A DNA stretch of 64,000 nucleotides. Source: Methanofollis sp. W23. GTDB taxonomy: Archaea; Halobacteriota; Methanomicrobia; Methanomicrobiales; Methanofollaceae. Positions 507-25,477 of the stretch are shown here, piece by piece. Each line of letters begins with the position of its first letter. Positions within the stretch are counted from its first letter, which is position 1. The notes under the pieces were generated by a model that searched no databases, was not told where the DNA came from, and was given only the letters and a program-made list of their open reading frames with translations. The stretch covers positions 2,190,140 to 2,254,139 of the forward strand of contig NZ_JAGGMN010000001.1 in the NCBI RefSeq assembly GCF_017875325.1. The letters run 5' to 3'. Made by a program: the position numbers and the translations under genes.

Positions 507-536
507 GTGGTTCCCACCAAACAAAAAACGAGGGGC

Positions 537-962: not shown

Positions 963-967
963 CGCAT

Positions 968-1429: not shown

Positions 1430-1430
1430 G

Positions 1431-2048
1431 TTACTCTGCCCCTCCGGTCCGGATCATATTCGTTGCCTTCAACGCATTGAAGGTCGCCTTGGCATAGTTG
1501 ATCGTCGTCCTGGTCTTCCCGCTTGAGAAAGCCCAGATATCCTTGACACCCGCGAAGTCGAGCACTTTCCTGCCGATTTCACCAGTGACCAGACCGATCC
1601 CCTGCGGAGCCGGCATCAGGGTGACCCTGACACTGCCAGCCTTGCCCTTGACCTGCACCGGGATCGAGTGTGTGGCTCCACACCCGCACTCCCAGCTCCC
1701 GCAGCCGCGGCGTACCTTGATGAGGTTGGTCTTTGCGTTATCAATTGCCTTTCGGATTGCGTTTCCGACCTGTGCATCCTTGGCCTGCCCCAGACCGATG
1801 TAGCCATCGTGGTTCCCGACGATGACCACAGCCCTGAATTTCACACGCCTGCCAGAGTCGGTCATCCGCTGGACCATCGAGATGTCAAGTACCTCGTCGT
1901 CCAGGTCAGGGAGGAAGGTATCGACGATCTGAGCCTCTTTAATTGGCTTCCCGCTATCGAGCACCTCGTCGATGCTCGCGATCTCGCCTGCCGCAACGGC
2001 ACGGCCAAGCCCGGTCAACGGGACCCAGGGTTCCTGTTCGTACGCCAT
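1431..2048 (-). CDS. rps5: Small ribosomal subunit protein uS5 (S5)
   Basis: Protein of the 30S decoding centre, 205 residues. The RNA-binding N-domain carries [18 protein letters not shown], and the C-domain carries the archaeal Cys-rich insert [15 protein letters not shown] and the [11 protein letters not shown] segment. The ATG follows a GGAGC ribosome site just past the rpl18 stop; the stop is one base from rpl30. It is a standard member of the spc part of the operon. Confidence 0.96.
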
Positions 2049-2049
2049 A

Positions 2050-2577
2050 TCACTCGAGCTCCTTCATGATGGCCTCTGCCACTTCTTCAACATTCTCGAC
2101 GAGGTTCCCGGCCCTTTCAGGAGCATATGCTGCAATCACCGAACCGCTGGTCCGCTCGTCGTCAGGGAGAATCTCCTCGCCATGCGGCACTTCCAGCCCC
2201 GCCTTGACTGCACCTTTCAGCGCAGCAAAGATCCGGGCACCAGACTGTGCACGCGCAAGCCCGATATCAAGAACTGCCTCATCGTAGCCTGCTGCAAGAG
2301 CTTTCTTCGCAAAGAGCATCCCGGTCAGGTAGGCTGCGGGGGTGCTCGACGTCGAGCCCTCATAGCCAAGACCAGTCAGTTCCTTGGAGTAGGCCGAGAT
2401 CAGGGTCTGATCTCCCTGCTCACCGGGCACCACCAGCTGACAGATGATCTGGCGGTTGGTCTTGCGGACGACCATCCGAGGAGTCTCGGAAAGAAGGAGT
2501 TTGATCCTTGCATGATAATCGGTCCGACCCTCTTTCCTCCTGCGGAATGGAACAAAATACCGTGCTCCGGTCGCCAT
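2050..2577 (-). CDS. rpl18: Large ribosomal subunit protein uL18 (L18)
   Basis: Binds 5S rRNA in the 50S central protuberance together with uL5. The 175 residues start [17 protein letters not shown], the usual archaeal/eukaryotic L5e-like opening, and include the conserved [14 protein letters not shown] strand. Adjacent genes are separated by only one or two bases (rpl19e upstream, rps5 downstream), consistent with one transcript. Confidence 0.96.
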
Positions 2578-2579
2578 AT

Positions 2580-3035
2580 TTATTCAACCCTCCCTTTCGT
2601 AATCATCTCAACATGGGTAATCAGGTGCGCCCGGCTCCTGAACTGGCCACCAGCCGCACGCCGATACAGACGGCGGTACGTCCGGCGGTCGATGGACCCG
2701 TCTTCCCGCATCTCGCGGAGCGTCGTCCTGATCGCCCGAATTCTCTGCATCCACTGGCTTTTCGACGGATTGCGGGCGCCAGCAGTACCTTTCCTCCGGC
2801 CATATCCTTTCTTGTGGCCGTACGAACGCTTGGCCGCCCTGACCCGTGCACGACCACGGCTGTTACCCTTTGCCGTGGCCGCCTTGATCACGCCCTCTTC
2901 GATGAGTTCCCTGATCTCGGCACGCGAGATCGCGCCCTCGATGTCAGAGAGACGTGCAGGATCGAACCTGATACGGTTGACCCCACAGTTGAGTACAGCC
3001 GCCGCAAGCCGTTTCTGAGCGGAAAGATCACTCAT
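2580..3035 (-). CDS. rpl19e: Large ribosomal subunit protein eL19 (L19e)
   Basis: Archaeal/eukaryotic-specific 50S protein, 151 residues. It begins MSDLSAQKRLAAAVLNCGVN and is followed by a very basic central region (RGRARVRAAKRSYGHKKGYGRRKG) that contacts rRNA. An upstream in-frame ATG would add 23 residues encoded inside the rpl32e tail. I reject it because the conserved L19e N-terminus starts here and a GGAGAGTG ribosome site lies just upstream. The start overlaps the rpl32e stop by eight bases. Confidence 0.95.
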   Translation of the reverse strand: MSDLSAQKRLAAAVLNCGVNRIRFDPARLSDIEGAISRAEIRELIEEGVIKAATAKGNSRGRARVRAAKRSYGHKKGYGRRKGTAGARNPSKSQWMQRIRAIRTTLREMREDGSIDRRTYRRLYRRAAGGQFRSRAHLITHVEMITKGRVE

Positions 3036-3474
3036 CTGCTTCACTCTCCTCAACGTCCTCTTCAGCAGCCTCTTCAACCGGTGCCTGCGAGAGGTCCTTT
3101 GCATTCAGCACTTTCAGCCCGGCTTCAAGGGCCTTCTGCTGGATCTCGATCCGCTTTCTCTTCCCGACGCCGCTCGCGATCCGCACCGCCTGCTCCTCAG
3201 GGTTGAGTCCCTCAAGTTCGGCAGGGTTGTTGACCAGCACCTCGAAATAGCCGCTTGGGTGCATGCCGCGCACCGCCACCGGGGAACCATATCCCGCCTG
3301 CGGGTGTGCGCCCTTTGCCTTGTACTGCCTCCGCTGCTTGCTGGTCAGACCACGGGGTTTCCTCCAGGTGTCCTTCAGTCTCCTCTTTGAGTGGAGACAC
3401 TGGCGGTGGAACGTGCATCCGGTCTTCTGGGACCGGACACGGATTAACCGAATCTTCTCGTCTACCATCTCCAT
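3028..3474 (-). CDS. rpl32e: Large ribosomal subunit protein eL32 (L32e)
   Basis: 50S protein found only in archaea and eukaryotes, 148 residues. The L32e core is visible as SQKTGCTFHRQCLHSKRRLK and WRKPRGLTSKQRRQYKAKG. The C-terminus is a long acidic tail (EEAAEEDVEESEADE), a feature also seen in uS3 of this operon. The chosen ATG shares one base with the rpl6 stop (TGATG); a GTG directly before it and an ATG six bases after are alternatives. Confidence 0.95.
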   Translation of the reverse strand: MEMVDEKIRLIRVRSQKTGCTFHRQCLHSKRRLKDTWRKPRGLTSKQRRQYKAKGAHPQAGYGSPVAVRGMHPSGYFEVLVNNPAELEGLNPEEQAVRIASGVGKRKRIEIQQKALEAGLKVLNAKDLSQAPVEEAAEEDVEESEADE

Positions 3475-3998
3475 CACGCCTTCTGCACAATGTAAATTCC
3501 GTCCTGGAAGACCCGCGTGTCGCGATTGCGGACTTTTGTCGCCCGCTCGATCTTCGCTGCAGTCGCCCCAACACGCTCTTTGTCGATACCGGTGAGAGTC
3601 AGTTCGTCATTGCCGACTTTGACCTCAACGCCAGGGAGGATCTTTGCAACCCTCGGCTGCTTCTCCCCGAGGAAGTTGTTGATAGAGAGGAGATCGCCCT
3701 GGAGTTTGATCTGGATCGGGAAGTGAGCATAGACCACTTTCATGTGGTACTCAAAGCCCATGCTGACACCATCAACCATATTCCGGATATGTGAGGCATA
3801 GGTGCCGATCATCGCGACGATGCGCTTCCTGGTTGATTCAGTGGAGACGATGACCTCATTGTCCTCAAGAACAATGGAGACGCCAGGGTAACGCATGTCA
3901 CGTGAGATCTCGCCCTTCTGGCCCTTCACCACGATGGTGAAGCCTTCGATCGAGACCGTGACCCCCTCAGGGATCGCTACTCTCTTCTCAGTTGTCAT
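3474..3998 (-). CDS. rpl6: Large ribosomal subunit protein uL6 (L6)
   Basis: 50S protein near the factor-binding site, 174 residues, with the duplicated L6 fold. The first repeat runs from VSIEGFTIVVKGQKGEI and the second from FLGEKQPRVAKILPGVEVKV. The C-terminal end NRDTRVFQDGIYIV is the archaeal signature. It lies between rps8 (11 bases upstream) and rpl32e (one-base overlap). Confidence 0.96.
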   Translation of the reverse strand: MTTEKRVAIPEGVTVSIEGFTIVVKGQKGEISRDMRYPGVSIVLEDNEVIVSTESTRKRIVAMIGTYASHIRNMVDGVSMGFEYHMKVVYAHFPIQIKLQGDLLSINNFLGEKQPRVAKILPGVEVKVGNDELTLTGIDKERVGATAAKIERATKVRNRDTRVFQDGIYIVQKA

Positions 3999-4009
3999 TC
4001 TCCTCCACC

Positions 4010-4402
4010 TCAGTATACATATCCCAGGAGTTCGCCGCCGATACCGTCACGGCGGGCCTGTTCATGTGACATGACGCCCTTCGACGTCGAGATCATGAGG
4101 AGCCCAAAGCCCTTTGCCGGGAGGTACCTCGTCTCCCACGACTCCATCTCTTCAAGAGTGGTGGCAAAGCGTGGGGAGATCGCACCACACCGGTTGATCC
4201 GACCGATGAGCGTGACCTCGAACTGACCGCCGCGGCCGTCCTCGATATATTCAAACTCGCCGATATACCCAGATTCCCGCATGATCCCAAGCATGGCGCC
4301 AAGGACCTTGCTCGCGGGCTCGACGATGACTGAGGACTTCCCGCCGTCGCTGGCGTTCTTGATGGCGCTCATCGCATCTGCAATTGTGTTCAGTCGTGCC
4401 AT
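4010..4402 (-). CDS. rps8: Small ribosomal subunit protein uS8 (S8)
   Basis: Primary 16S rRNA-binding protein of the 30S platform, 130 residues, the usual archaeal length. It opens [17 protein letters not shown], with the C-terminal signature [33 protein letters not shown]. It lies directly after the small rps14 gene in the conserved L5-S14-S8-L6 order. Confidence 0.97.
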
Positions 4403-4413
4403 TTCACTCCACC

Positions 4414-4572
4414 TCAGTTCATCTTCTTAAAGCCCATCTTGGGGGCCCACTCGCGGAAGCACTGCCGGCAGAACATGATATTGTACCTGCGGACAAGACC
4501 CTGCTTCCTGCCACAGATCTGGCACCTGTTTGCGCCGCGTCCGAAATTTTTCTTCTGTTCTTTGTCTGCCAT
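4414..4572 (-). CDS. rps14: Small ribosomal subunit protein uS14, zinc-binding type (S14)
   Basis: A 52-residue 30S protein, short enough to be missed by length cut-offs. The translation begins [20 protein letters not shown] and ends KMGFKKMN. Two CxxC pairs (CQIC and CRQC, about 15 residues apart) form the zinc site of the archaeal S14 type. It occupies the expected slot between rpl5 and rps8. Its ATG overlaps the rpl5 stop (ATGA), so translation is likely coupled. Confidence 0.96.
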
Positions 4573-5081
4573 CACTGCACCTCCATGCCATAGCGTTCGG
4601 TCATAAAGGCGACCGCCTCGTCACGGGTGACGGTCTGCTTGGCCGGAAGTTTTCGGCGTGCGATCATCCTGCGTGCGATCCTGACGCCGTTCTTCTCAAG
4701 GATGACATTGACGTCCATCCCATAGATCCCGATCTGCGGGTCATAGGACTGCCCCGGGAAATCGGTGTGCTCTTCGATACCAAAGGAGAAGTTGCCCTGA
4801 TTGTCAAAGGCAGAGGGAGAGAGTTTCCGACCGACGATGTCAAATGCAGTCTTAAAAAACTCTTCTGCTTTCTTGCCCCGCAGGGTCACCTTGGTACCGA
4901 TTGGTGCGCCTTTTCTGACCCCAAAGGCCGGCTGCGTCTTCTTTGCAATGGAACGCACCGGTTCGGCCCCGGTGACCGCGCGGATGATGTTCTCGCCATT
5001 GACAAGCCTCTCACCGCTCTCGCCGACACACATGTGCACGACGATCTTATCGATGTGAAGTTCCTGCATTGGATTTGTCAT
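4572..5081 (-). CDS. rpl5: Large ribosomal subunit protein uL5 (L5)
   Basis: 5S rRNA-binding protein of the 50S central protuberance, 169 residues. It shows the motif [12 protein letters not shown] near the N-terminus and the [14 protein letters not shown] segment in the second half. The start codon overlaps the stop of rps4e (ATGA) and its own stop overlaps the rps14 start, so the three genes are tightly coupled. Confidence 0.96.
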
Positions 5082-5803
5082 CAGGCCTCAATCCCCCATT
5101 CTGTGGTCGAAGACGCCTCACGACCGATCATGAAGATATACTCCTCGATCGTCTCGAACGATTCCTTGTTCTCGTCTTCAAGGATGACCCGGTTCGGGAT
5201 GCTGCCCGGCACCGTCTTGATCTCGGTGATCGAACCGATCCTGCCCGAGTGCTTCCCGCCGATGACCATTGCCATGTTCCCGACCGCAAAGGGGAAGTGG
5301 TCCACGATCTTGAACCGCTCCTCGCCCTCGCCGATGGTGAGGACGACCGAGTCCTTGGGCTTGTAGGTGTTGTCGGCAAGGACGTTGGCGCCATAGTTGA
5401 GGTTCAACTGGACCTTCCCGCCCTTGATGATCGTCTTGTTCCTGATCTTGCAGAGCCTGGTCTTGGCAGCCTCGGCGTCGATCTCGACCGAGACCTGGTG
5501 GCCGCGCTTGTCTATCAGGATCCGGTAGTGCTTGTCCATTTTCGGGATGGAGATGATATCAAAGATACCAAGCCCGATCTTGGAGTCGGTCACCGGTTTA
5601 CCGTTGACGATGACATCGCGCTGGTGGAGGATCCGCTTGACCTCCTTCATGTTCCTGGCCAGGCCCATTCCGTCTCTGAGCCAGACACCGATCGGCATGG
5701 CAGCCGCGTTGTGCGGGCCAGGGGAGGTTCTGGTGATGAACGTGTTCTCCTTCTTGGCGATCTGCCAGGCCATCGGCGCGGTCAGTCTCTTCAGATGTGA
5801 CAT
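5081..5803 (-). CDS. rps4e: Small ribosomal subunit protein eS4 (S4e)
   Basis: Archaeal/eukaryotic 30S protein, 240 residues. It carries the S4e N-terminal domain (MSHLKRLTAPMAWQIAKKENTF), an S4-type RNA-binding region around VKRILHQRDVIVNGK, and a KOW-like segment MAMVIGGKHSGRIGSI toward the C-terminus. It abuts rpl24 and overlaps rpl5 by one base. No anomaly seen. Confidence 0.96.
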   Translation of the reverse strand: MSHLKRLTAPMAWQIAKKENTFITRTSPGPHNAAAMPIGVWLRDGMGLARNMKEVKRILHQRDVIVNGKPVTDSKIGLGIFDIISIPKMDKHYRILIDKRGHQVSVEIDAEAAKTRLCKIRNKTIIKGGKVQLNLNYGANVLADNTYKPKDSVVLTIGEGEERFKIVDHFPFAVGNMAMVIGGKHSGRIGSITEIKTVPGSIPNRVILEDENKESFETIEEYIFMIGREASSTTEWGIEA

Positions 5804-6169
5804 TTACTTCCTCTCCTCCAGCTTTGCAACCCGGCGGGAGTCGTCGGTCTTGAATTTGGTGATCACGACATTGGAGGGATTCACCGGACGTGGGACCTCG
5901 GTCCCGTCGGTCTTGGCCACCGTCACGCCGTGCACCTCGATCATGCCCTTCTTTGTGTCCACGCTATCGACGACGCCTTCATTTCCGGCATGCTCGCCAC
6001 GGAGCACCAGCACCGTGTCGCCAGCGACGACGCGGGCGCGGCGCCTCTTGTATTCCTCACGGAGATCCCGGGAAAGGGGTGCCGAGAGGAACCTGCTCCG
6101 CTGATGGGTGGCTGCATTGTAGCGTATCTTACGCTGTTTTCTGGGCTGTTTGCTTGCAATCCGTACCAT
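5804..6169 (-). CDS. rpl24: Large ribosomal subunit protein uL24 (L24)
   Basis: Early-assembly 50S protein at the exit tunnel, 121 residues. The archaeal L24/L26e opening MVRIASKQPRKQRKIRYNA is followed by the KOW motif at VVAGDTVLVLRGEHAGNEGVV. A longer frame with 22 extra residues overlaps rpl14. I reject it because a GAGGTGTGG ribosome site precedes this internal ATG and homologues start here. Confidence 0.95.
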   Translation of the reverse strand: MVRIASKQPRKQRKIRYNAATHQRSRFLSAPLSRDLREEYKRRRARVVAGDTVLVLRGEHAGNEGVVDSVDTKKGMIEVHGVTVAKTDGTEVPRPVNPSNVVITKFKTDDSRRVAKLEERK

Positions 6170-6179
6170 GCACCACACC

Positions 6180-6578
6180 TCACACGATAATCGTCGCGGT
6201 GGACCCGATCTTCGGGAAACGCTCGGCGACCTCACGGGCCACCGGTCCCTTGATCTCGGTCCCCTTCGGTTCGCCGCGGTCGTCGACGATCACGGCAGCG
6301 TTGTCGTCAAAGCCGACCCGCAGGCCGTTCGGGCGGCGCATCTCTTTGCGCTGCCTGATGACAACTGCCTTCAGAAGTTTGCGCCGCATGTCGGGCGTAC
6401 CCTTCTTGACCGAGACTGTCGCCATGTCACCGAGACCCAGTTTCGGCTGACGCCTGCGGACACCGTGGTATCCGACCACTGAGACAATCTCGACGACCCT
6501 GGCACCGGTGTTGTCGGCACAGACAAGTCTGGTCCCGGTGTTGATCGCCCGTGGGATCTTGGACATCCGTGCTTTCAT
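6180..6578 (-). CDS. rpl14: Large ribosomal subunit protein uL14 (L14)
   Basis: 50S protein at the subunit interface, 132 residues. The very conserved core is clear: [20 protein letters not shown], then [28 protein letters not shown], ending with [18 protein letters not shown]. The ATG follows the rps17 stop with a GGTGAT ribosome site; MSKIP four codons later is a less likely alternative. Confidence 0.97.
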
Positions 6579-6579
6579 C

Positions 6580-6900
6580 TCAGATCACCTCGACCACAAC
6601 GAAGTTGGTTGTCTTGGACAGGGGCCGACACTCGGCGATCCTGACCATGTCACCAACCTTCACGTCGAAGCATTCCGGGAGGTGGGCGTGGTACCTGGAG
6701 GTACGCTTCTCGTACCTCTTGTATTTCCGCACATAGTGGAGGAAATCCCGTCCGATTACCACCGTTCCATTCATGCGGTCGCTCACGACCTTGCCGGTGA
6801 TCACCTGGCCGTGCACCGGCAGGGTGCCGTGAAACGGACAGTTCACGTCGCTGCACTCCTTCTCAGGAAGTGGGACGTTTAACCCAATATCTCTCGCCAT
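6580..6900 (-). CDS. rps17: Small ribosomal subunit protein uS17 (S17)
   Basis: Primary rRNA-binding 30S protein, 106 residues with the archaeal N-terminal extension [18 protein letters not shown] before the OB-fold. The OB-fold carries the S17 signature around [19 protein letters not shown]. It lies between rnp1 and rpl14 in the conserved order. Confidence 0.97.
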
Positions 6901-6910
6901 TCTCTATCCT

Positions 6911-7186
6911 CTATCTGGTTTTGCGCATGCTGATCCGTTTTTCAGGTCGTGCCACAAGGGCAGACCCTTCGACTTCGGCGCATACCCCGTCAGGGAGGGT
7001 GAAGAGAAAGACGGTGCCTTTCTTCTCCACCTTCTTCTCTCCCGTAGGGGTGAGGACCGCCAGCATATTGCGAGTCTCATCTACAATCCGGCCAGATACC
7101 CCGACATAGGTCGGGTTCCCGGCCTTCACCACAGAGACTGCAAGCCCGGTCAGTTCGTGCCGAAGGAGGGTCTGCGGTGTGATCAT
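6911..7186 (-). CDS. rnp1: Ribonuclease P protein component 1 (Rpp29/Pop4)
   Basis: Archaeal Rpp29, an Sm-like protein subunit of RNase P that helps mature tRNA 5' ends. 91 residues; the family core is visible as HELTGLAVSVVKAGNPTYVG, then GRIVDETRNMLAV, and the FLFTLPDGV strand. Its ATG overlaps the rpl29 stop (ATGA). Placement between rpl29 and rps17 is the standard archaeal location, although a SUI1 (aIF1) gene often lies between rpl29 and rnp1 in other archaea and is absent here. Confidence 0.95.
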   Translation of the reverse strand: MITPQTLLRHELTGLAVSVVKAGNPTYVGVSGRIVDETRNMLAVLTPTGEKKVEKKGTVFLFTLPDGVCAEVEGSALVARPEKRISMRKTR

Positions 7187-7395
7187 GCCTGGGTGACGGC
7201 CCTCCGTGCATTCTGCTCGGTCTGGATGCGGGCGATGGTCCGCCTGAGTTCCCTGATATGTCCAGGGTTCTCAGGCGCACCGCCTGCACTGACCTTGCCG
7301 CGAGCCTGCATCAGGTCGAGTTTCAGCTTCTCAAGCTGTTCGACCAGTTCTACGTCCGAGAGCTGGCGGACCTCATGTGCCCTGAAGATGGCCAT
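7183..7395 (-). CDS. rpl29: Large ribosomal subunit protein uL29 (L29)
   Basis: Small helical 50S protein near the tunnel exit, 70 residues, starting MAIFRAHEVRQLSDVELVEQL. It has the helical-hairpin signature PGHIRELRRTIARIQTEQN. The ATG follows the rps3 stop with no spacer, and the ribosome site GAGGAGCAG lies inside the end of rps3. Both features support coupled translation. Confidence 0.96.
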   Translation of the reverse strand: MAIFRAHEVRQLSDVELVEQLEKLKLDLMQARGKVSAGGAPENPGHIRELRRTIARIQTEQNARRAVTQA

Positions 7396-8124
7396 TTACT
7401 GCTCCTCCTCGACGAATTCTGCAGATTCTGGAACCTCTTCCTCGAATTCCTCGAGTTCGGCGTCGACATCCTCGCCGATGTCCTCGACGACTTCTGGCTC
7501 TGCCGTTTCAGTGACCTCGGCCACCGGTTTGGGCTCAAGCACTTCGAACTCGTCAGGGAGTTTGGCGTCGCCAGGGATGATCATGACCTGGACCCCGATG
7601 GTGCCCAGTTTCTTGACGGCCACGGCAAAACCCTTCTCGACGATGGTCTCGCTCGGTTCGCCGGCGTGCTTGACATGGCCCTCGATGAACTTCTGGACCC
7701 TTGACCTGGCCCCGGTTACCTTTCCTGACAGGACGATCTCGCACCCGAGTGCACCGGACTCCATGACACGGCGGATCGTGCTCGAACCAGCCTTCCTGAA
7801 GTACCAGCCGCGTTCAAGAGCCGTAGCAAGACGCTCGGCCATGATCTGGGCGTTGGTGTTCGGGTTCTCGACCTGCTGCACCTCGACCTGTGGAGAATCA
7901 AGGTCGAAGTTGGTCGCAAGGTCCTGGGTCAACTGCCGCACGACCTTACCGCCTTTCCCGATAACGATCCCGGGCTTCTCGGCGAAGATCGTGATCTGCG
8001 TTCCGAGCGGGGTGCGGACGATGTCCATCCCGCCGTAGCCGGCGCGCTTGAGTTCACGGTTGAGGAACTGCTCGATGCGTGCCTTGGTGACACCGTCACT
8101 CACAAACTTACGCTCTATTGCCAT
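7396..8124 (-). CDS. rps3: Small ribosomal subunit protein uS3 (S3)
   Basis: 30S protein at the mRNA entry channel, 242 residues. The KH domain shows the GxxG loop in GIVIGKGGKVVRQL, and the C-domain shows GCEIVLSGKVTGARSR. The C-terminus is an acidic tail rich in Glu (about the last 45 residues) found in some archaeal S3 proteins. It lies between rpl22 and rpl29. Confidence 0.97.
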   Translation of the reverse strand: MAIERKFVSDGVTKARIEQFLNRELKRAGYGGMDIVRTPLGTQITIFAEKPGIVIGKGGKVVRQLTQDLATNFDLDSPQVEVQQVENPNTNAQIMAERLATALERGWYFRKAGSSTIRRVMESGALGCEIVLSGKVTGARSRVQKFIEGHVKHAGEPSETIVEKGFAVAVKKLGTIGVQVMIIPGDAKLPDEFEVLEPKPVAEVTETAEPEVVEDIGEDVDAELEEFEEEVPESAEFVEEEQ

Positions 8125-8127
8125 GGT

Positions 8128-8595
8128 TCACTCAACCTCCTTCACGATCAGTTCGACGTTCACGCTCTCACGCATCTTCGGGGTCGCCCTGCCCATCGCA
8201 CGCGGGAAGATCGCACGCATCGCACGGCCGCGGTTGGCGGACGTGTGAACGATGACGAGTTTCTCGGGGTCAAGCCCGGCATACTCGGCGTTCTTCTTTG
8301 CCTGGTTGATGAGTTTGATAAACTCGCCAGAGGCCTTGACCGGGTAACGACCGGCGTCCCAGCCCGAGAGCCCCTTCTTGTGTGCTACGTCCATGTTGAA
8401 ACGCTTGAAGGGGATGGCCTTCTTCTTCGCGACGACTGCCTCCAGGTACTCGATGGCCGCATCGGCCTTCATGCCCCTGATATATCTGGCAATCTCGATG
8501 GAGTGTTTCGGGGAGATGGACAGTTCGTTCGCCTTTGCGCGCGCGATGTTCTCTCCCTTGACCTGCATTGAATATCCAGTCCGTGCCATTGCCAT
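8128..8595 (-). CDS. rpl22: Large ribosomal subunit protein uL22 (L22)
   Basis: 50S protein lining the exit tunnel, 155 residues. The archaeal L17e-type opening MARTGYSMQ is followed by the long beta-hairpin region, with the signature [21 protein letters not shown]. The chosen ATG shares one base with the rps19 stop; a second in-frame ATG six bases later gives MARTGY directly and is equally possible. Confidence 0.95.
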
Positions 8596-9008
8596 CACTT
8601 CAGGGGTACGTACTTGGAAGACCTGGTCGCACCGATACCGGCGGTACCGTGGTTGACTCTCCTTCTTGTCAGGGCGAATTCACCCAGATAGTGGAAGACC
8701 GCCTCAGGCTGGATCTCGACACTGACAAACTCCTTGCCATTGTAGATCTCGATCGTCTTGCCGACCATCTCGGGCATGATGACCATGTCACGCAGATGAG
8801 TGCGGATGTGGTCTTCCCCTTTCTTCACGTTGGCGAGGAGGGTCTCCTGATCCCGCGAGATCCCGCGGTTGAATTTGCGCCGTGCTCTGGCCGGCATCAG
8901 GGGGATCAGTTCACTTGTCCCCATCTGCTGGAGCTCCTCAATGGAGTAGCCGCGGTATTTAAACGCCTCCCGCCGCCGCGGAAGCCTTTTTTGTGTTTTT
9001 TTAGCCAT
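8595..9008 (-). CDS. rps19: Small ribosomal subunit protein uS19 (S19)
   Basis: 30S head protein, 137 residues. The S19 signature is seen as [22 protein letters not shown], then [16 protein letters not shown] near the C-terminus. The N-terminal extension ([19 protein letters not shown]) is archaeal/eukaryotic type. It precedes rpl22 with a one-base overlap. Confidence 0.97.
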
Positions 9009-9017
9009 TCAATCCCC

Positions 9018-9734
9018 TCACTTCTTCCATTTCCCAGTTCTGCGAGCAGCGATATGCCCCACTTTGCGGCCTGGAGAGGTGCCGCGGGATACTGTCTTCG
9101 GCCTGCCCGGGTGCTGGTGGCCACCGCCACCAAACGGGTGGTCGATGACGTTCATCTTCACACCCGACGATCTGGGCCACTTCTGGGCCTGCGATTTCAT
9201 CTTGTAATGCTTGTTCCCGGCCTTGGCGAAGGGTTTTTCACTGCGTCCCCCGCCTGCCACGATCCCGATCGTGGCCATGCACAGTTCGTGGAACCACTTC
9301 TGCTTGCCGCTGGGCATCTGGACTGCAACTTTGCCGGTGGTCTTGCCGACGACCATGGCCTGGACACCACTTGAGCGGACAAACTTGCCGCCGTCATTCG
9401 GCTTTGCCTCGATATTGCAGATATATGCACCGACCGGAATCCCCCGCAGGGGCAGGGTGTTGCCGTTCTGGACACCGGCCTCTGGCCCCCAGGAGATCTC
9501 GTCACCGACGCCCATACCCTCAGTCACAAGAGCGTAGACCTTCTTCCCGCCCTCAAGAGCGACACGGGCGATCGGGGCATGCCTTGCAGGATCATGCTCG
9601 ATATCGACGATCTCGCCCTTCACCGTCTCGGTGTTCGGACAGGCGTGTTTGAGGTCGGCCTTGTACTTGTGAGATGGTGCCCGGTAGGTCGGGCCACCCC
9701 GGCCGCGGTTCTGCTGAATAATTCTATGTCCCAT
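9018..9734 (-). CDS. rpl2: Large ribosomal subunit protein uL2 (L2)
   Basis: 50S protein needed for subunit joining and peptidyl transfer, 238 residues. It opens MGHRIIQQNRGRGGPTYRAP, has the SH3-like core around GGKKVYALVTEGMGVGDEI, and carries the C-terminal motif VIDHPFGGGGHQHPGRPKTV with the conserved histidine. Standard archaeal length and position. Confidence 0.98.
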   Translation of the reverse strand: MGHRIIQQNRGRGGPTYRAPSHKYKADLKHACPNTETVKGEIVDIEHDPARHAPIARVALEGGKKVYALVTEGMGVGDEISWGPEAGVQNGNTLPLRGIPVGAYICNIEAKPNDGGKFVRSSGVQAMVVGKTTGKVAVQMPSGKQKWFHELCMATIGIVAGGGRSEKPFAKAGNKHYKMKSQAQKWPRSSGVKMNVIDHPFGGGGHQHPGRPKTVSRGTSPGRKVGHIAARRTGKWKK

Positions 9735-9744
9735 CTACACCACC

Positions 9745-9993
9745 TTACATGACGCCAAGCCTGCTGAGAATTTCCTCAGCGGCGTTTTCGTTCTCGAAGT
9801 TGATGATGGCCTTCTTCTGACCCTTCATTGTCATCATGGTCCTGATCGACTTGACCGGCTGTTCGAAGGCCTTCTCGACCTCACGCATGATCTGGTCTTT
9901 GGAAGCGCCCTGCTCGACGAGAACCTGGATCTTGTTCTCGTTCTCGAGCATCATCATCGCTTTTTCCGTCACATACGGATGCTTGAGCACCAT
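9745..9993 (-). CDS. rpl23: Large ribosomal subunit protein uL23 (L23)
   Basis: 50S tunnel-exit protein and docking site for SRP, 82 residues. It opens MVLKHPYVTEKAMMMLE and ends IINFENENAAEEILSRLGVM, with the conserved VKSIRTMMTMKGQKKA strand between. It abuts rpl4 with no spacer. Confidence 0.97.
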   Translation of the reverse strand: MVLKHPYVTEKAMMMLENENKIQVLVEQGASKDQIMREVEKAFEQPVKSIRTMMTMKGQKKAIINFENENAAEEILSRLGVM

Positions 9994-10743
9994 TCACTCC
10001 ACCTCTTCCATCAGTTTGAGTGCGCTCTCAGACCAGATCGTCAGCCTGCCCGCCTGGGTACCAGGAGCGAGAAGCTCGACATCAAGGTCATAGACTGAGA
10101 TCGCATCGACACCAGCAAGGTTGGAGGCGGCACGAAGTGGTTCATCACCGGTCACGATCAGCACGCTCTTGCGCTGCTTGTACCGGCGCCCACGCATCTT
10201 ACCCCGTCCTGCACGGACCTTCTTGCTCTCTTTTGCCCGTTCGACATCGGCATAGAGCCCAAGGGCCTGAAGGGCGTTGATGATATCAGAAGTCTTCTGG
10301 AGCGCTTCGAAGGATTCGTCGACGACAAACGGGACGTCACCTTCAAACCGGTGACCACGGGCGGCGACGAGTTCCGGCACCATGGTAGCGGCGACTGCGG
10401 AACGCAGGGCCAACCATCTCTCCTGTTTGTTGATCTTTCTCTTCAAAACCTTTGCAGCCTTTGGCGGGTGGGCCGCACGGCCGCCCTTGGCCTGCGGGAT
10501 CTTGGCGGCTCTTGAGCCGTTCTTGATCCTGGGCAATTGTGCTACGCCGCGTCCTGACCCCCAGCTCTCGGCTGAACTCCTGATCCCGGCAAACGGGTTG
10601 GTGCCATGGGGCTGAAGCCTGATGCTCTGGGCAGCCAGTACCGCCTTCTTGATCAGGTCAGGCCGGTAGAGTTCATCGAAGACAACCGGGAGTTCAATCT
10701 CACGGACGACTGACCCGTCGGTTGATCTGACATTTGCTTTCAT
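9994..10743 (-). CDS. rpl4: Large ribosomal subunit protein uL4 (L4)
   Basis: 50S protein with an extended loop into the exit tunnel, 249 residues of the archaeal/eukaryotic L4 type. The loop is visible as WGSGRGVAQLPRIKNGSRAAK, and the C-terminal domain has KSVLIVTGDEPLRAASNLAGV. It lies between rpl3 and rpl23 with seven or fewer bases to either neighbour. Confidence 0.97.
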   Translation of the reverse strand: MKANVRSTDGSVVREIELPVVFDELYRPDLIKKAVLAAQSIRLQPHGTNPFAGIRSSAESWGSGRGVAQLPRIKNGSRAAKIPQAKGGRAAHPPKAAKVLKRKINKQERWLALRSAVAATMVPELVAARGHRFEGDVPFVVDESFEALQKTSDIINALQALGLYADVERAKESKKVRAGRGKMRGRRYKQRKSVLIVTGDEPLRAASNLAGVDAISVYDLDVELLAPGTQAGRLTIWSESALKLMEEVE

Positions 10744-10750
10744 CCGTTAT

Positions 10751-11764
10751 TCACCCCTGCTTGCTCTCCAGGCTGACATAGTTCACGGCCGGTGTCCTCA
10801 CTTCGTGTTCGCCCTGCCTGATTGCCGGGCGGATGCGCACGAGACGCTTGACCGGACCGGGGACTGAGCCCTTGACCATTATATACGAGTTCCTGACCAG
10901 TCCGTAGTGGAGGAATCCACCCTTGGGCACGATTTCAGTGCCGTCGGCGCTGGCCTTGAGGATCCGCTTGTTAAATTCGGTCCTCTGCTGATACCCCTTC
11001 TGGCCCATCTGCGGGACCTGCCACCTGACGTGGTGAGGATGCCACGGACCAAGGTTGCCGATGTGGCGCTTCTTGCCGCCGCGGGAGTGTTTTCCCTTCC
11101 TGACCTGGATACCCCAGCGCTTGACCGGACCCTCGGTACCCTTCCCCTTGGTAATAGCGGTGACGTCGATGTACTGCCCTTCTGTAACCAGAGAGAGCGG
11201 GTCGACCTCGGTGCCAAGGAGGGACGTCGCAAGGTTGAGGCGGTCTTCCATGGACCCGCCATCGATCCTGGTCTCCATCAGTTCTGGCACTTTCTTCGGG
11301 ACACCTGAGAGGGCCGCCGGCTGCGTGTACATCAGGGCAAAGATCTCGGTGACTTTCCCTGCCGCCACGGCCTCCTGGATAGCCTTGAGGGCCGCATCGC
11401 GGTCGTGTTCTTTTGGCAGCGTCATCCTCTTTGCGAGGGCGGCGTCAAGGTCTTCAGCCCAGACCTCAGTCAGCGGGTGTTTTCCATAAGAGTCGGCGAC
11501 ATAGGCGCGCACAGCCGCAACCTTCATGACCGGGACTTCGATGATGGTGACCGGCACCATGATCTCGCGCCCTTCGGTCGGGCTGTTCTTGTGGTCGTCA
11601 ACGCCGACGACGTGCGTCATACCAACCTTATACCCTGCAATCGCCTGCAGCATGGGTTCTCCTTCGTGCCGAGGCCAGGACTGGTACTTTGGTACCTGGC
11701 TCTTTGCCCGCTTGCGCGGACTGAAGGCAAGGGAACCCCTGCGCGGTCTGTGTATGTTCGGCAT
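10751..11764 (-). CDS. rpl3: Large ribosomal subunit protein uL3 (L3), first gene of the operon
   Basis: 50S assembly protein close to the peptidyl-transferase centre, 337 residues, the archaeal long form. It opens [21 protein letters not shown] and carries the key loop [21 protein letters not shown]. It heads the operon that runs down to secY. No TATA box lies close upstream; the nearest convincing one is about 600 bases away, across a heavily structured leader. Confidence 0.97.
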
Positions 11765-12376: not shown

Positions 12377-12588
12377 ACCCCTGGGGGATCCATTCTCCTC
12401 TGGCATTGTCGGGAGCCAGGCACTTGTGGCAGGAGGGGAGAGAAGAGGGATCTTCTGGCCCCATACACATCCTCGTGATGTCCTCTAACCAGGGCGTGCC
12501 GCCGCCCCTGGGCGGTGAAGAGGGGAGGAAAAGGCGAGTGAGTCGCACACTCGTCCAGGAGATGTGAGGGATTTACAGGGCCGATCGT

Positions 12589-13995: not shown

Positions 13996-15027
13996 CTGGC
14001 CCTGTTCGGTCGTAGGTTATGAGCAGGACCGACAGGGGTTTCGGGGCGGGGATATACGTCTACCTGAGCGATCTTTCCCTGGATGGGAACCCTGGCCCTA
14101 TGTAGCACTCAGGACCATGCCTCGCGCCGGGCGGACCTGAGGGGGAATTTCTCTGAGCGGTACCGGAGAGTGTCCCCCATGTCCCTGTAGAGACGACGAC
14201 GCCCCGCCCCCCTGATCACATCAGGTGGATGCCAGAGCCCGCCGTCTTTCTCGAACCCGTTTACACTCGTTCCTCAAAGCACCCCGCGTCATGGCGCCCT
14301 GGTGAGGTGCCAGAGAGATTCAAGCCCACAGAAACCCTCCAGACGACCATCTCTCCATGGGTATGGGAAGGCACGCCGATCAGAATGGCCGCCCCCAATC
14401 GTCGAATCTTCACCACCATCTCGCGCCGGGGGTGGCACTCCCCACAAGGAGGAGAGTGGGGGCAACGCATTGAAAAGAGAGCGATCGACGAGATATATTC
14501 ATCCAATATGTATGGCGGGCGTTCGCTTCATGAGCAAACTCTCCAAACCTGGATCTTCCTTCATCAGGAATCGTTGATTATATGGCTCTGTAGAAACTCT
14601 CACAAATTCCTGGTATGACCGTAACTCTCGCCCCCCCATATATTCGCGCCGGGGGCGCAGCCCCCTGACCCCAGGGATGAAGATAGGGCCGGGAAGGCAC
14701 AAGAGACACATATTTTGGGGTGCAGTCCTCGCCCTATCATATTGTGGGGGAACCGGGGGGCGGCCTGCCCAAGCCAAAGATAGTTGTCCTGAGGAATTCT
14801 ACAGAGCCAATCATATATGTTCTCAAATGTGCTCTCGCTCGTATCCTCGAGGACGAAGAGAGGATTTTTCTGAAGAGGGGCCTGTGTCGTTCACCCTCGA
14901 TCTTCCTGCCCGGTGTCGGGGAGAGCGGCCAGAAGAGGTGTGAGGATGATCTCCGGACTCCGGGGATAACGGGGGAGGCACCCCCCACAAAAACCGTCCA
15001 GAGGATCTCTACAGCCCCCTGACCCCC
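13996..15027. other. Intergenic mosaic between mtd and the GalT-like gene
   Basis: About 1 kb without a credible gene; the open frames are short and not conserved-looking. It contains a complete TIR-flanked element, a 29-base block (14365-14393) identical in reverse complement to one at 28984-29012, and GC-rich near-palindromic blocks such as 14646-14667. Confidence 0.6.
14584..14808. mobile_element. MITE-like element, copy 1 (complete, 225 bp)
   Basis: Begins GGCTCTGTAGAA and ends TTCTACAGAGCC, a perfect 12-base terminal inverted repeat. Inside is a GC-rich hairpin block and the recurring AGGGATGAAGATAGGGCCGG stretch. It has no coding capacity. No clear target-site duplication is visible beside the ends. 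Copies with the same ends occur in most long gaps of this window. Confidence 0.6.
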
Positions 15028-19253: not shown

Positions 19254-20199
19254 AGAGAATTCTTGAGAACGGGATGGTGCCTGCGCCGATCTCGGTTTTG
19301 ATCGCGCATCCCAGTTCGACTGCATGGCCGATGAGGTTCATGCTGGAATATGAGACGATCGAGAGCCGGTAGGGTTCTTTCGAGAGGTTGAACACTTTTT
19401 CTCCCATCTCAACAGGAAAGAGGAACCCGGCAGATCGCATGGCGGCGGCGATCTCTTCGACATAGGTCTGTGCCGGGAGCGGGACTTTTCTGACATTGGC
19501 AAGGGCTGTCCCGGTGCCGGTGGCGACATAGGCGGAGATCGAGGTGAGGCCGGCAGAGATGAAGAGTTGGAGGGGGTCGATGCTGGTCCCGCGGTAGGAG
19601 ACAAGGTCGGCAAACCCGGCAGGGCGGCCGTCATGGATGGCAAGTCTGCCCCCGTACTTCATCTCCACCGGAATGCCAAGGCGCTGGAGGACGCCGTCCA
19701 TGGTGACCGAGCAGACGGTGATGAACCCGGTGTGGCCGGGGGGGACGCGGGGGTCGTCGTCGACGAGGCGGTATGAACTGAAAAATCCGCACCTGGTCGA
19801 GAGTACGGCGTCATATGCCTGTTTCACCCGGTCGACCTCGGCGTCGGGGACGACCGAGAGGTTGTAGGCGACGTCGCCGGTGGAGGTGGTGGGGTCAAAG
19901 GTGGTCCTGACCGCAAGGCGTTCCAGTTTGGAGATGATGAACCCGATCCGCTCGCCGACAAGGGCGCTCTCGATCTCGGCGACGCCCCTGGGAGTGAGAA
20001 CCCGGCCGCGGTTGCCGACTTTTCTGGTGAACCCCATCTCGTCGAGGGAGCGGAGGTAGTACTGGACCGCACGGTCGGAGAGGACGAACCCATGTTCGGC
20101 CATCAGTTCAGAGAGCCTCTTGGCGCCCATCGGGTCGGGGTGCTCCTTGAGGATCCTGAGGATCTCGACATATTTGCGCTCGGTCCGGATCTGACTCAT
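19246..20199 (-). CDS. NrpR-type transcriptional repressor (HTH + NrpR/DUF128 domain)
   Basis: 317 residues. Residues ~1-75 are a winged helix (RKYVEILRILKEHPDPMGAK, then a recognition helix at SDRAVQYYLRSLDEMGF). The rest is one NrpR regulatory domain with GHTGFITVCSVTMDGVLQRLG. NrpR represses nitrogen-fixation and glnA genes in methanogens, with 2-oxoglutarate as inducer; here only one regulatory domain is present, so it would pair with itself or another subunit. Its ATG overlaps the stop of the upstream nucleotide-hydrolase gene (ATGA). No nif gene is in the window, so the target is unknown. Confidence 0.88.
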   Translation of the reverse strand: MSQIRTERKYVEILRILKEHPDPMGAKRLSELMAEHGFVLSDRAVQYYLRSLDEMGFTRKVGNRGRVLTPRGVAEIESALVGERIGFIISKLERLAVRTTFDPTTSTGDVAYNLSVVPDAEVDRVKQAYDAVLSTRCGFFSSYRLVDDDPRVPPGHTGFITVCSVTMDGVLQRLGIPVEMKYGGRLAIHDGRPAGFADLVSYRGTSIDPLQLFISAGLTSISAYVATGTGTALANVRKVPLPAQTYVEEIAAAMRSAGFLFPVEMGEKVFNLSKEPYRLSIVSYSSMNLIGHAVELGCAIKTEIGAGTIPFSRILST

Positions 20200-20633
20200 C
20201 TGGCTCCGACCACTCCTTCACTGTCCTGGTAGCGTCCGTGATAACATACGGCACCGTCGCCGACCTCGTGGAGGATCATCTGGACGACCCGTTCGCCTTC
20301 AGGGAGGACGACCTCTTCGGCACCCATGTTGACGAGGCAGAGAGTAAGTTGGCCCCTGAACCCTGGGTCGACAAAGCCGCCGCCAAGGAGCACCCCGCGT
20401 CTCGCGTACGAGGAGCGGCACCGGAGGGTGGCGGCAAGGTCGCCGGGGATCTCCACGTGTTCGAGGCTCGGGACCAGGGTCAGGGTGCCGGGCGCAAGAG
20501 CGATCTCCTCACCGGCCCGCAGGTCATAAGAGGCGGGCTGGAGGGAGGTGTCACTGAACGGGGTGATGACCAGCCGTCCCGCTTCCTCGGAGGTTCTCAG
20601 GCGCGACTGGATCTCAGCAGATGAGAGGATCAT
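20196..20633 (-). CDS. dCTP deaminase/dUTPase-family protein (probably dUTP diphosphatase)
   Basis: 145-residue member of the trimeric dUTPase/dCTP deaminase fold, which keeps dUTP low and supplies dUMP. Visible motifs are RCRSSYARRGVL (phosphate-binding loop) and GGFVDPGFRGQLTLCLVN, followed by GERVVQMILHEV. Deaminases have Glu in the TLE position (E138 in E. coli Dcd); here it is Cys, so deamination is doubtful and dUTP hydrolysis more likely. The internal ATG opening MILSSAEIQSRL was chosen over an upstream start that adds 23 unconserved residues. It is co-transcribed with the NrpR gene. Confidence 0.8.
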   Translation of the reverse strand: MILSSAEIQSRLRTSEEAGRLVITPFSDTSLQPASYDLRAGEEIALAPGTLTLVPSLEHVEIPGDLAATLRCRSSYARRGVLLGGGFVDPGFRGQLTLCLVNMGAEEVVLPEGERVVQMILHEVGDGAVCYHGRYQDSEGVVGAR

Positions 20634-20769
20634 TGTAGTAGTTGATGGTGCCGGAAAAGGCTTAATATCTTGTGATATGATATATAGCAGGACATAGCCC
20701 ATTTCTTCTTTCCGGCCGGCTCCTTTTCCAGACCGGCAAGAGGATCAGGGGGCACGACCCGTAGGTCAT

Positions 20770-20841
20770 GGACCCATGGGGTAGAGGATATCCTCCTGGG
20801 CTTCGAACCCAGGGACGCGGGTTCGATTCCCGCTGGGTCCG
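20770..20841 (+). tRNA. tRNA-Arg (anticodon UCG)
   Basis: 72-nt cloverleaf. Acceptor GGACCCA pairs with TGGGTCC and the discriminator is G. The anticodon stem CTGGG/CCCAG holds the loop CTTCGAA (anticodon TCG, reads CGA), and the T-arm is GCGGGTTCGATTCCCGC. No intron, CCA not encoded. It is followed at once by T-runs. Confidence 0.95.
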
Positions 20842-20858
20842 TTTTTGTGATTTTTTTT
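20842..20858 (+). terminator. T-run terminator after tRNA-Arg
   Basis: TTTTT then TTTTTTTT separated by GTGA, directly after the tRNA; typical archaeal oligo-T termination. Confidence 0.6.
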
Positions 20859-21581
20859 GGTTTTGTAGAAACGCATCCTTTTTCATCAGGTTTACTCTCC
20901 AGTTTTTCTCATGCACATGGGCCTGTCGCCCTGAGGACTCTCTCGGAGATCAGAGATCTTCTCGAACTCGCTATCGCTCGTTTTCCCCGAGCTTCATGGA
21001 TGGAGATCGAACCGGAAAGATAGATATGATGATCGTGAAGAGGGCACTGCCATCCTTGCCCCCATTAGAGGTGTGGGAATTTATGCTTGCCAGCACCCAT
21101 ATCCCAGAGATCAACACATTCCCCTGAATCCCCAATTTTCGAGAGTGCCCCTGGTGTGATGGAGGGAGGTAAAGAGAGAGCATATCACAAAACTCTCTCA
21201 GGGTGAAGATTTCCTCGAACCGAAACCGCATCTTTCCAGACCTCAGAATCATCCTCAACCAGGGAGTGTGCCGTCCCCCCCGGACCACGATAGAGCATGA
21301 AAGGCAGAATCGATGAGCATTACCATGACGAGTGCGTCGCAGTCCACGACCTATCATGTAGCAGGGGGTTCGGAGAGTATCACGCTCCCCAGAGAAATGG
21401 TCATCAGAAAAGTTCTACAAAGCCTACAAAACCATACTTCTCAAGTGGACGACTTCCATGAGATCCCATAAATCATCCAGAAAAACTTCACCAAACCCAA
21501 AAAAAGAGTTCTAGTCCTATATTATAAGCCTGAAAACAGTTCAGGGAAAAAGGATCGCTTCCCCCCATGAAATCGGCCCAT
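20859..21581. other. Intergenic region after tRNA-Arg
   Basis: About 720 bases without a credible gene. One half terminal repeat (TTCTACAAAGCC, 21413-21424) and a GCCGTCCCCCCCGGACCAC-type GC block are visible. Otherwise AT-mixed, possibly a decayed repeat. Confidence 0.5.
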
Positions 21582-24500
21582 TTATTCCATCTTTATGTAC
21601 GTTTTTTCATTCAAGAGTTTCCTGAGGTCAGCATCCGTGATACAATAACGCGAACCGGCATCCTCGGTGTCGGCCACGACTCTGATATCATAGAGAGTTA
21701 AGGGGAGATCTCTGATATCAAGTCTGGCCTCTTCGCGTTTCTCACCCTTCCCGGCAGTCCTGGTCCCGGCCTGGGCCCAGGATCCATGTTCCGAACGATA
21801 CTCGATCGTCTCGGTGACCGTGCTGTTCCCGGTGTAGTTGAGGGTCCAGGCGAGGTCCAGGTTCTGACGCGTGACTCCGGTCACCTCAAGATCTTGGAGG
21901 TCAAGGGAGGCGTTCCCGAGCGGGGTGTTGTTCAGCGCCCGCATCACGGTCAGGTAGGTGTTGGGGATCTTGAGATCGTCTTTCCCATCGTTGAAGGTCA
22001 ATACCGAGTTATTATCCAGGATTTTCACATTGCCGATGGCATCCGGGTTTGGCAGGACTTTCAGATGGAAGGTGGTCTGCCAGGTCTGGTTGAGTTTGAT
22101 GGTCCCGACGTTGAAGTACAACTCCCCTTTCGACCAGTTCTCTCTGTCATCATAGGTCTTCGGGTAGCCTTCAACACCATCCCCATTGAACCAGACCTTA
22201 TCTTCACGGGTGGAGGGGACGTATGAGAAGGCTTCGTTCCCAGGCACCGTCCACTCAGACGTGTTGGTGCTCACCGTGACATCTTTGAAGTCGAGGGCAA
22301 GCGTGGTGTTGACCCCGGCCTCCTCCCTGAGTTCGCCGGCGATCGAACGGTAAATCTCTTCAATGTTGGCCGCCGTGCCACTGTAGTATCGACCTGTCAG
22401 TATTTCCTCATCTATATTGACAGCAGTCGACTCTGCAAGCCTTTTGAGAGTCCCTGTTCCATCAGATGACAGATCATCATCATAACCGATCGCGTAGATC
22501 AGAACGCCATTATTCCTAGCATAAACCGATAAGTTCTGCTCGGCATCGGAGAGATCAGTGAAACTATAATATCCCCTCATGAGATCTCCATAGTCCTCAG
22601 GATTATCTATCGGAACCCAAACTTTCTCATAATGCCCCTTGAGGAAACTATCCCATACCCAATACTCACGCCAATAACCATCAGGGTCTCCCCGTGCCAG
22701 CGGGTCCCCATACCAGTTGTAGTCACCATCAGAGAGGAGAATCGCCGCTTTTATCGCACCAGGATCAACTTCCGAATTCCCTTCTCCACTCAGTTCTTTG
22801 ATCGCTCGGTATAGTCCATACCGTAGAGGGGTACCAGAGTCTGGAACAATACTGTCAAGTTCAGCCTTAACAAGAGAGTGATCCTCAGTGAGCGCCAGAT
22901 CTACAGTAGCATAATCGAGATATTGTTTAGGGACATCATACCAATTATCAGTATATGATTCTGGATCTCGAAACGATGACTCTCCAGGTTCATCTATCTG
23001 ATTATAATTCCCAGTGTTCCTGCCAAAAGTCACAAGGCCGACCTTGTCACCCTCATCCACAGAAGCAACAAATTCTTTTCCCGCTTCCCGCACTGAATGC
23101 ATCCGGTCAGGATCATTATGGAGCATACTTCCTGACCGATCAGTGCAGATTACAGCGTTCACTTTTTTCGGCTCCAGTTTGTACCCATTCCCGATCAACG
23201 TGATATTCACCTCAACGGTCTCGTTCCACGCCGCCTTCGGGGGGGTGACATTGGTGATGACACTGAGGTACGGGACATTGGTCCAATTCAAGTTCAGGGG
23301 TTCCTGATACGAATTCCACACCGCTTCTACCCAGCATCCAGCATGTGCCGTCGGATATCCATTGCCTGTGAACGACCCTGGCCAGAGAGGGGCGACGGCA
23401 TACCCGCGTTCATCGGTGTTCGCCGTTGTTGTATCCTCTTCCGTTCCCTCCCACTGCGGGAGTTCGACCTGGGTATCTCCATAGTGACTCTTAATAGTGA
23501 AGGTGACCGTCTCCCCCTCGACCGGGTTCCCTTTCGCGTCCATCACTTTCGCCATCACCTGGGCGGGTTTGGCATTCGGGACGTCACCGCTCGGCATCAT
23601 CTGGGGATAGGCGCTGAGGACCATCTGGACCGGTTCGGTGCTCGTGAACTCGACGACCTGGGTATCAGAGAGGCTCTCGTTTTCGAGGGTCTTTGCAGTG
23701 ATCGTCACCTCTCCCACCGAGTCCTTCGGACCATAACTGATCGCCGCCCGGCCGGCCCGGTTTGTGTGGATGGTCCGGTCCTCTTCTTTCTCCAATGAGG
23801 TGTTGACGACGATCGCAGTGCCGTTACAGGGGTTCCCGTATCGGTCCTGGACGAAGTACGTGATGACAAAGACACCCTCGCCATTTGCCGGAACCCATCG
23901 CTCGTCCGGGTCGACCACAGCGTTGAGTGTGTATGGGATCGGCTCTCCAATACCTAGTATCGTGAGGTACCGGTCTTTCACCGCCCCTGGCAGAGCGATA
24001 TACACGATGTTCTCCCCTGCCACCGTATCGGTCGTAAGAGGAGCGCGGACCTCCCCGCTTCCATCGACTTGAACGGTGATCTCCTTCTCTCCCCCTCCAA
24101 AGTGGGCACCATCATCCGGAGACCCCACATAGAATGTGACATTCTCAGCGCTGCGGCGGTCATCGATCAGGTTCCCATACTCATCCTCCATCGAGAGAGT
24201 GATCTCTGTCGTCGAACCGGCCGTGACCTCATCGTTGCACTCTATAGACTGGATCCGATATGGCGCCGCGTGATCGATCCCCACCTCACACTCGTCAGAG
24301 ACAGATCCGTCCCCCTCACCCCAGACCGCAGAGACCACCACATCCCCGCTCTTCGTCCCGGGGATAAATCTCGTCACCGCCTTCCCTTCGGCATCGGTCG
24401 CGAGCGTCGTCCGGGAAAACGAGCCCCGCGCCGGATCGCAGGAGAAGACGACCTCGGCCCCTGCCTGCGGATTGCTGCCATTCGTCACCGTCGCGGTCAC

Positions 24501-24679: not shown

Positions 24680-25477
24680 TTTCGCCAGAGCCGATGATCA
24701 TATGATCCTTTCTTTTCAAAAAATGAGGACTTAGAACCAACATCTCATGATATAATCAATTGAAGATATATCAGGAAAATTTCTGGATGAAAAAGAAGAT
24801 ATATGAGTCTTCAAAAATAATTCTCGACATACCAGACACCACGAAATGAAAAGGGACCGCCTCAGGATAACCCCTCGCATTTTTGGAAGGGAATCATCGC
24901 CCCCCCTCTCCCGGGGGGAGGATCCCCCTATGGACACGGGGCCCCGGGATGACATGGGCTCTGGAGAACGCGACCAGAGAGATCTGAGATGGCCTCTACA
25001 AAAAAGGGTTCTGTAGAAACCCTCACCCTTTATGGGTGCACGCGCGATTCTACCGTCTTCCCTCATGAATCCCACCAAGGGCGGCAAACCCCCAGCCCTC
25101 TGGGATGAAGATTGAGCCAGAAGGCATATTCGAACGCCCTGAAGGGGGATTGCCGTCCCTGACCTATCGTGGTGCGAGGGGTTGGAGGGGCGGCAAACCC
25201 ACAGTCCCCTGTGCGAGCGATTGGTGGCGGACGGCACTACGCTCTCCATGGTCATTGATGGTGCCCTCCCGGCCCCATCCTACAGGGCGGACCTCCAGTC
25301 TCCCGTGGATCTGCGATTTTTCAGTATGCGGCCGGAGGGAACCTGAGACGATCCACAGGTCTTTGAAAGCACCCCCGGCATGGTGATGAAAAAAGGGGGG
25401 TGATGCACATGTTCCCCCTCAATAGGGGGCGGGATCCTACAGAGCCGAAACACAAAAAAAGATCTGGGTCAGAGGGC
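24680..25477. other. Intergenic mosaic between the two vWA paralogues
   Basis: About 800 bases with no gene that I can support. It holds a composite repeat running from the half-repeat near 25007 to the inverted copy at 25446, plus GC-rich blocks such as CCCGGGGGGAGG near 24910. The stretch from 25007 to 25150 aligns by eye with 62374-62520. Confidence 0.55.
25007..25446. mobile_element. MITE-like element, copy 2 (composite, 440 bp)
   Basis: Left end GGTTCTGTAGAA (one mismatch to consensus), right end TCCTACAGAGCC (one mismatch). The left 140 bases closely follow the half-element at 62374. The larger size suggests two fused or nested copies. Non-coding. Confidence 0.45.

Follow-up and report, generated by a model that had tools for sequence, protein, structure and literature searches.

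Many of the gaps between genes in a 64,000-nucleotide stretch of the Methanofollis sp. W23 chromosome (hereafter, the window) contain intervals that start and end with the same short sequence, GGCTCTGTAGAA, in inverted orientation. This raises the question of whether these intervals are mobile elements and, if so, what moved them. The initial annotation had suggested a family resembling miniature inverted-repeat transposable elements (MITEs) with shared inverted ends. The family is real, and larger than was stated there. In the whole genome (2.91 Mb in two contigs, 99.7% complete), GGCTCTGTAGAA was found exactly at 265 sites, compared to none for the reversed control, and with up to two mismatches at 1,229 sites, compared to 208 in the control. 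Within the window, 82 sites differ from GGCTCTGTAGAA by three mismatches or fewer (44 ± 6 in shuffled sequence), a number reached by none of 100 shuffles.

Canonical elements are 225-236 bp long, typically about 232 bp, with an A end that starts GGCTCTGTAGAAACCCTCAC... and a B end that starts GGCTCTGTAGAAATCCTCTTGATG... In the family consensus, the terminal inverted repeats extend over 17-18 bp, consisting of GGCTCTGTAGAA followed by A/T, C/T and CCTC. A short class of 119-132 bp is missing the middle, between two G/C-rich stretches; the 120-132 bp class consists of internal-deletion derivatives of canonical elements. Longer elements are mosaics with a C end (GGCTCTGTAGAATCGGGCATGAACCC) and common inner modules. 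The C ends match the A and B ends, and those of the insertion sequence (IS) described below, only in the outer 12-13 bp. Two profile models, one made from 28 canonical copies and one from 39 C-type ends, gave 331 and 74 matches, respectively, in a 464-kb sample of the genome, whereas the reversed sequence gave no match. The matches merged into 305 repeat loci, none of which lies mainly within a predicted gene. The sample was picked partly near known copies, and its densities are therefore biased upwards. It contained 84 unnested end pairs, which, when scaled by the share of ends in the sample (89/265 exact, or 255/1,229 with up to two mismatches), give an estimate of about 250-400 complete elements genome-wide, plus many fragments. 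In the window, the two profiles yielded 41 merged loci covering 4,945 bp (none in the reversed sequence), the main features being the following:

12455-12582, minus strand: partial canonical element comprising the A-end half (profile E=3e-6).
14584-14808, plus strand: copy 1, full-length canonical MITE of 225 bp with its A end on the left and its B end on the right (profile E=1.3e-54); flanks GATTATAT/AATCATAT, 6/8 matching.
20859-21424, plus strand: repeat cluster beginning 17 bp past tRNA-Arg; its 21262-21424 part corresponds to the final two thirds of a canonical element.
25007-25446, plus strand: mosaic, in which the A end and the initial 200 bp of a canonical element are fused to another end; no target duplication (4/8).
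29527-29658, plus strand: short form of 132 bp whose right end has 3 mismatches; flanks AAAAGATT/AAAAAATT, 7/8.
36214-36539, plus strand: A/B element, 326 bp, with about 95 bp of other DNA added; flanks AAACATTC/AAAGATTG, 6/8.
38110-38843, no strand assigned: C-type ends on both sides (GGCTCTGTAGAAT..GGCATGAAC), 734 bp, with canonical-type core pieces inside.
42369-43109, no strand assigned: 740-bp interval between convergent genes; contains the 42793 element as well as a C-type end.
42793-42916, minus strand: short form (124 bp) arising by internal deletion, flanked by a perfect 8-bp duplication of the target, AATAGATG.
48410-48600, minus strand: MITE, 191 bp, shortened internally (profile E=3e-34); flanks AAAATGTT/AAAATATT, 7/8.
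48619-49233, no strand assigned: C-type mosaic bounded by C ends (48619 and 49233); inside are a B-type end near 48835 and a canonical core (48909-49123).
55204-55556, minus strand: mosaic of a canonical B end (55204) and a C end (55556), lacking a target duplication (2/8).
56297-56530, plus strand: canonical full-length MITE, 234 bp (profile E=2.9e-49); flanks CAAGACCT/CAAGATCT, 7/8.
61339-61593, minus strand: canonical-type copy with degraded ends (profile E=4.5e-21).
62374-62551, plus strand: half copy, A end present and B end gone (profile E=5.5e-33).
63818-63957, minus strand: half copy with no partner end within the next chromosomal kilobase.

The inverted ends of copy 1 are perfect over 12 bp, as originally described, and close relatives of it lie elsewhere in the genome at C1:73349 (88%) and C1:1155002 (85%). 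Among the eight intervals first listed, 14584-14808, 29527-29658, 36214-36539, 42793-42916 and 56297-56530 are well formed (flanks matching at 6, 7, 6, 8 and 7 of 8 positions), while 25007-25446, 48619-48835 and 55204-55556 are either mosaics or ends paired by chance, with unconvincing duplications (4, 5 and 2 of 8). The half copy noted at 62374 was correctly recognized, but that inventory overlooked the elements at 48410-48600 and 61339-61593, the C-type ones, such as 38110-38843, and many fragments. The first part of the window (3-11653) holds about 23 almost gapless minus-strand genes, apparently a ribosomal-protein cluster by size and order only. This gene run is free of repeats, the nearest fragment being that at 12455-12582.

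The initial annotation had proposed a search for target duplications and empty sites, and both were found. For 102 end pairs in the sample, the mean identity between flanking 8-mers was 0.567, compared to 0.332 for shuffled partners, and 17 of the 102 had perfect 8-bp duplications, where about 0.42 were expected. No comparable excess was seen among these pairs at other lengths (2-7 and 9-12 bp). Over all loci, 74 distinct elements had at least 7/8 duplicated bases, 48 of them perfect. The target consensus, S-A-A-W-W-T-T-S, is AT-rich; it was counted on both strands and is thus symmetric by construction.

A precise empty site was found for the MITE at C1:1458575-1458803 (L007 1501-1729), which is bordered by GTTTTTTT on both sides. 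In Methanofollis sp. STE_20 (L121), the corresponding sequence contains a single GTTTTTTT, and its flanks, 94% identical over 158 bp, are not interrupted. There, the target site lies within an open 366-codon APH-family phosphotransferase gene, which is split by the MITE in the W23 genome. The same element is 99.1% identical to that at C1:646168, with perfect duplications at both, indicating that movement was recent. Nested insertions with uninterrupted counterparts elsewhere were found at L102 10074-10197, L003 1501-1727 and L102 648-1300. Furthermore, hybrids were bordered by perfect 8-bp duplications at L096 13312-13936 (C/B), L103 19273-19848 (A/C) and L101 4182-4431. Since hybrids with a C end carry perfect duplications, the outer 12 bp apparently suffice for recognition. 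The elements are short (typically about 120-235 bp), multicopy and devoid of a transposase gene, and are true MITEs.

The transposase that fits these ends was found in relatives, encoded by IS elements of 954-1,010 bp with MITE-like ends of 17-18 bp, perfect 8-bp duplications and an IS5-family transposase gene. The duplications are CGAAAATC (L039), GAACAATC (L065), GATTAACC (L084) and TGTCATTA (L144). The transposase scored 217.5 bits with NF033579 (cut-off 140) and 73 bits with PF01609 (cut-off 23). In five transposase sequences, D128, D201 and Y250-R253-E257-K264 are invariant, the latter forming the Y-(2)-R-(3)-E-(6)-K signature of the IS5 family. An 8-bp target duplication is a feature of the ISH1 subgroup of this family; the partner copies have such duplications, and their placement in a subgroup would need the ISfinder reference sequences. 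Intact copies of the IS were found in another Methanofollis species, in other genomes of the order Methanomicrobiales and in Methanosarcinaceae. The copy in the other Methanofollis species (L065, genome G005) has the ends GGCTCTGTAGAA and GGCCCTGTAGAA and an unbroken 305-aa gene, and a genome of another family (G020) has several intact copies. Other members of the genus have copies that are frameshifted or fragmentary (L039 and L071), or intact transposase genes with a variant end (GGCTTYGTTGAA, in G003). Similarity between the MITE and the IS is confined to the ends, and the MITE is thus not a simple internal deletion of it.

A similar element is present on the plasmid pMETHO01 of Methanomethylovorans hollandica. 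This IS5 copy (METHO_RS12915, WP_015313961.1) is about 1 kb long, with one exact GGCTCTGTAGAA end and one with a single mismatch. Its transposase is 54.5% identical to the query transposase, and among its counterparts in other methanogens, one (L144) has a perfect 8-bp duplication. It differs from the W23 MITE in being autonomous, coding for its transposase, and in its unrelated interior. Within the genus, the four relatives with the most exact ends have 356, 102 (G005), 69 and 41 of them, and the remaining relatives 0-16. When a genome collection was scanned with the source record left out, STE_20 was the sole named genome matching the 24-bp B end. Across the phylum, the 18-bp end, GGCTCTGTAGAAAYCCTC, is present in 58 of 393 genomes, mainly in one other family, where it reaches 42 copies; this family is presumably Methanosarcinaceae, because the named pMETHO01 match belongs there. 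A genome of that family has a short derivative of its own (L143), 193 bp long, with a perfect duplication. The MITE was not found in plasmid and phage records, nor the 18-bp end in viral contigs. In another relative (G114; L139 1170-4334), an IS5 copy with the perfect 8-bp duplication CAAAACAT has its transposase gene interrupted by about 2.2 kb of other DNA. In IS copies of the relative G047 (L067 675-711 and L088 1477-1513), the left terminal repeat is followed immediately by an inverted stretch, possibly forming a tip hairpin of about 37 bp.

Taken together, it is very probable that the intervals constitute a large MITE family moved by an IS5-family transposase, with an IS of matching ends. 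An IS5-family DDE transposase from the roughly 1-kb IS would act on the matching MITE ends and insert the elements into AT-rich 8-bp targets, which would be duplicated in the process. C ends pair with A, B or C ends, and mosaics would arise by nested insertion and by movement of hybrid units. The initial annotation had already described non-autonomous elements moved in trans. This is supported by the duplications, the empty site, the nesting, the near-identical copies and the autonomous IS in relatives, and, judging from sequence, mobilization of the MITEs in trans by the transposase of the partner is the likely route. It had, however, placed the transposase elsewhere in the same genome, where we found no intact IS5_2 transposase in the two contigs. 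Only a fossil is left at C1:1034.5 kb, an internally deleted piece of the IS transposase in which FYSWRTGKTRKRFLK is fused directly to ARRYWYQVKEIK, followed by an intact right end. Since the genome is nearly complete, the driver of the latest insertions was thus not seen.

We considered the possibility that a different, still active resident transposase, recognizing the same outer end, moves the copies. The near-identical copies and the species-specific insertion imply recent activity, yet there is no intact IS5_2 gene, and the C-type ends match the IS over only 12-13 bp. However, the length of the duplication and the sequence of the ends are equal to those of the IS5 element in relatives, and the families searched offered no candidate. 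IS1595 and IS6/IS240, suggested by 8-bp duplications together with GG- ends, are absent, with no PF12762 or PF13610 match in the genome. PF01609 gave a single decayed gene (C1:20983-21840), which was rejected as the driver because it falls outside the IS5_2 group and the ends that flank it have no duplication in common. We regard a different resident transposase as unlikely. It was presumably the IS5_2 transposase, rather than another of equal specificity, that moved the W23 copies, and the IS transposase was presumably lost from this genome recently. The C-type ends on both sides of the decayed gene are of a variant type, GGCTCTGTTGAA (L089 374-3161; C1 ~19856-22643), and a second, related end family may exist. 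Intact IS5 copies with T at the variant position of GGCTCTGTTGAA were found in the relatives G003 and G005.

The distribution of the repeats relative to genes bears on whether they might instead be structured intergenic sequences, terminator-like or REP/BIME-like, that are maintained by the host and are not mobile. All 89 exact ends in the 464-kb sample were intergenic, even though coding sequence makes up 67% of it; genes were called with a simple hexamer-based procedure, and those disrupted by an insertion would tend to escape it. Repeats make up 32% of the intergenic DNA between convergent genes, compared to 17% between co-directional and 15% between divergent genes, which speaks for such a reading. 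A complete element is a long, GC-rich imperfect palindrome, and the predicted RNA folding is strong (z = -6.9 for one copy). However, a compensatory change, in which both sides changed and the pair was kept, was seen in just 3 of 35 predicted pairs (28 copies), and no Rfam family was matched. With covariation almost nil, conserved RNA structure was discarded as a separate explanation. A host-maintained structure as the origin of the repeats is refuted by the 8-bp duplications, the nesting and the empty site inside a gene, and we consider it highly improbable, while a secondary host role is possible. That all copies lie between genes, as first claimed, holds within the window, but not genome-wide, given the gene interrupted at C1:1458575-1458803. 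A chance pairing of a common 12-mer, to which the three of eight proposed pairs without a target duplication might point, is refuted by the exact-site and profile counts and has next to no probability.

The MITE family also leaves its mark on the spacing of genes. In the window, the Na/Ca exchanger gene ends at 42368 and the TctA gene lies at 43109, 740 bp away. In two relatives these genes abut (0 bp), and in a further two they are separated by 12-14 bp; thus, the 740 bp are lineage-specific. The intergenic interval that holds copy 1 measures 1,054 bp in W23, compared to about 285-1,018 bp in relatives; copy 1 was absent from the orthologous place in all relatives examined. One might speculate, although we hold it to be rather doubtful, that much Methanofollis intergenic DNA derives from one modular, freely recombining set of elements with IS5 ends, in which any two ends are mobile together when inverted, and that this set outlived its transposase here and shapes gene boundaries, being denser between convergent genes.

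Archaeal MITEs of the IS5 family have been described, with the partners ISMac15 (252 bp, 12 copies), ISMba19 (147 bp, 5 copies), ISMma12 (140 bp, 24 copies) and IsMbu10 (185 bp, 5 copies) (Kamoun et al. 2013, PMC3852290). Like those in W23, they are short and non-coding, with IS5 ends of 15-17 bp and similarity to the partner limited to the ends. As far as tabulated descriptions can be compared, they differ in number and target, with 5-24 copies and duplications of 0-3 bp, compared to hundreds of copies and 8 bp in W23. Across 30 archaeal genomes with newly tabulated MITEs, the maximum is 34 copies (PMC3852290), and our estimate of 250-400 is far above this. Bacterial ERIC sequences reach up to 711 copies in Photorhabdus (PMC10969869). 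ERIC, Chunjie and Correia elements resemble the W23 MITEs in being intergenic, palindromic and high-copy, with shortened forms, but have other ends and other hosts, whereas the W23 MITE has an identified autonomous partner with matching ends. A literature search with the literal 12-mer returned one unrelated match, a cancer paper, and nothing specific was found on Methanofollis insertion sequences. Thus, MITEs of this kind are known, but the W23 family appears to be undescribed in the literature searched, in which subscription journals are sparse.

The interest of the family lies in its copy number for an archaeon and in the loss of the local driver. It represents a large MITE expansion in a methanogen for which both the broken local remnant of the driver and its living relatives have been identified. 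The MITEs account for differences in intergenic length among Methanofollis species, as in the 740 bp found here where two relatives have none, and provide a natural system for MITE amplification and for how long movement lasts after the transposase has been lost.
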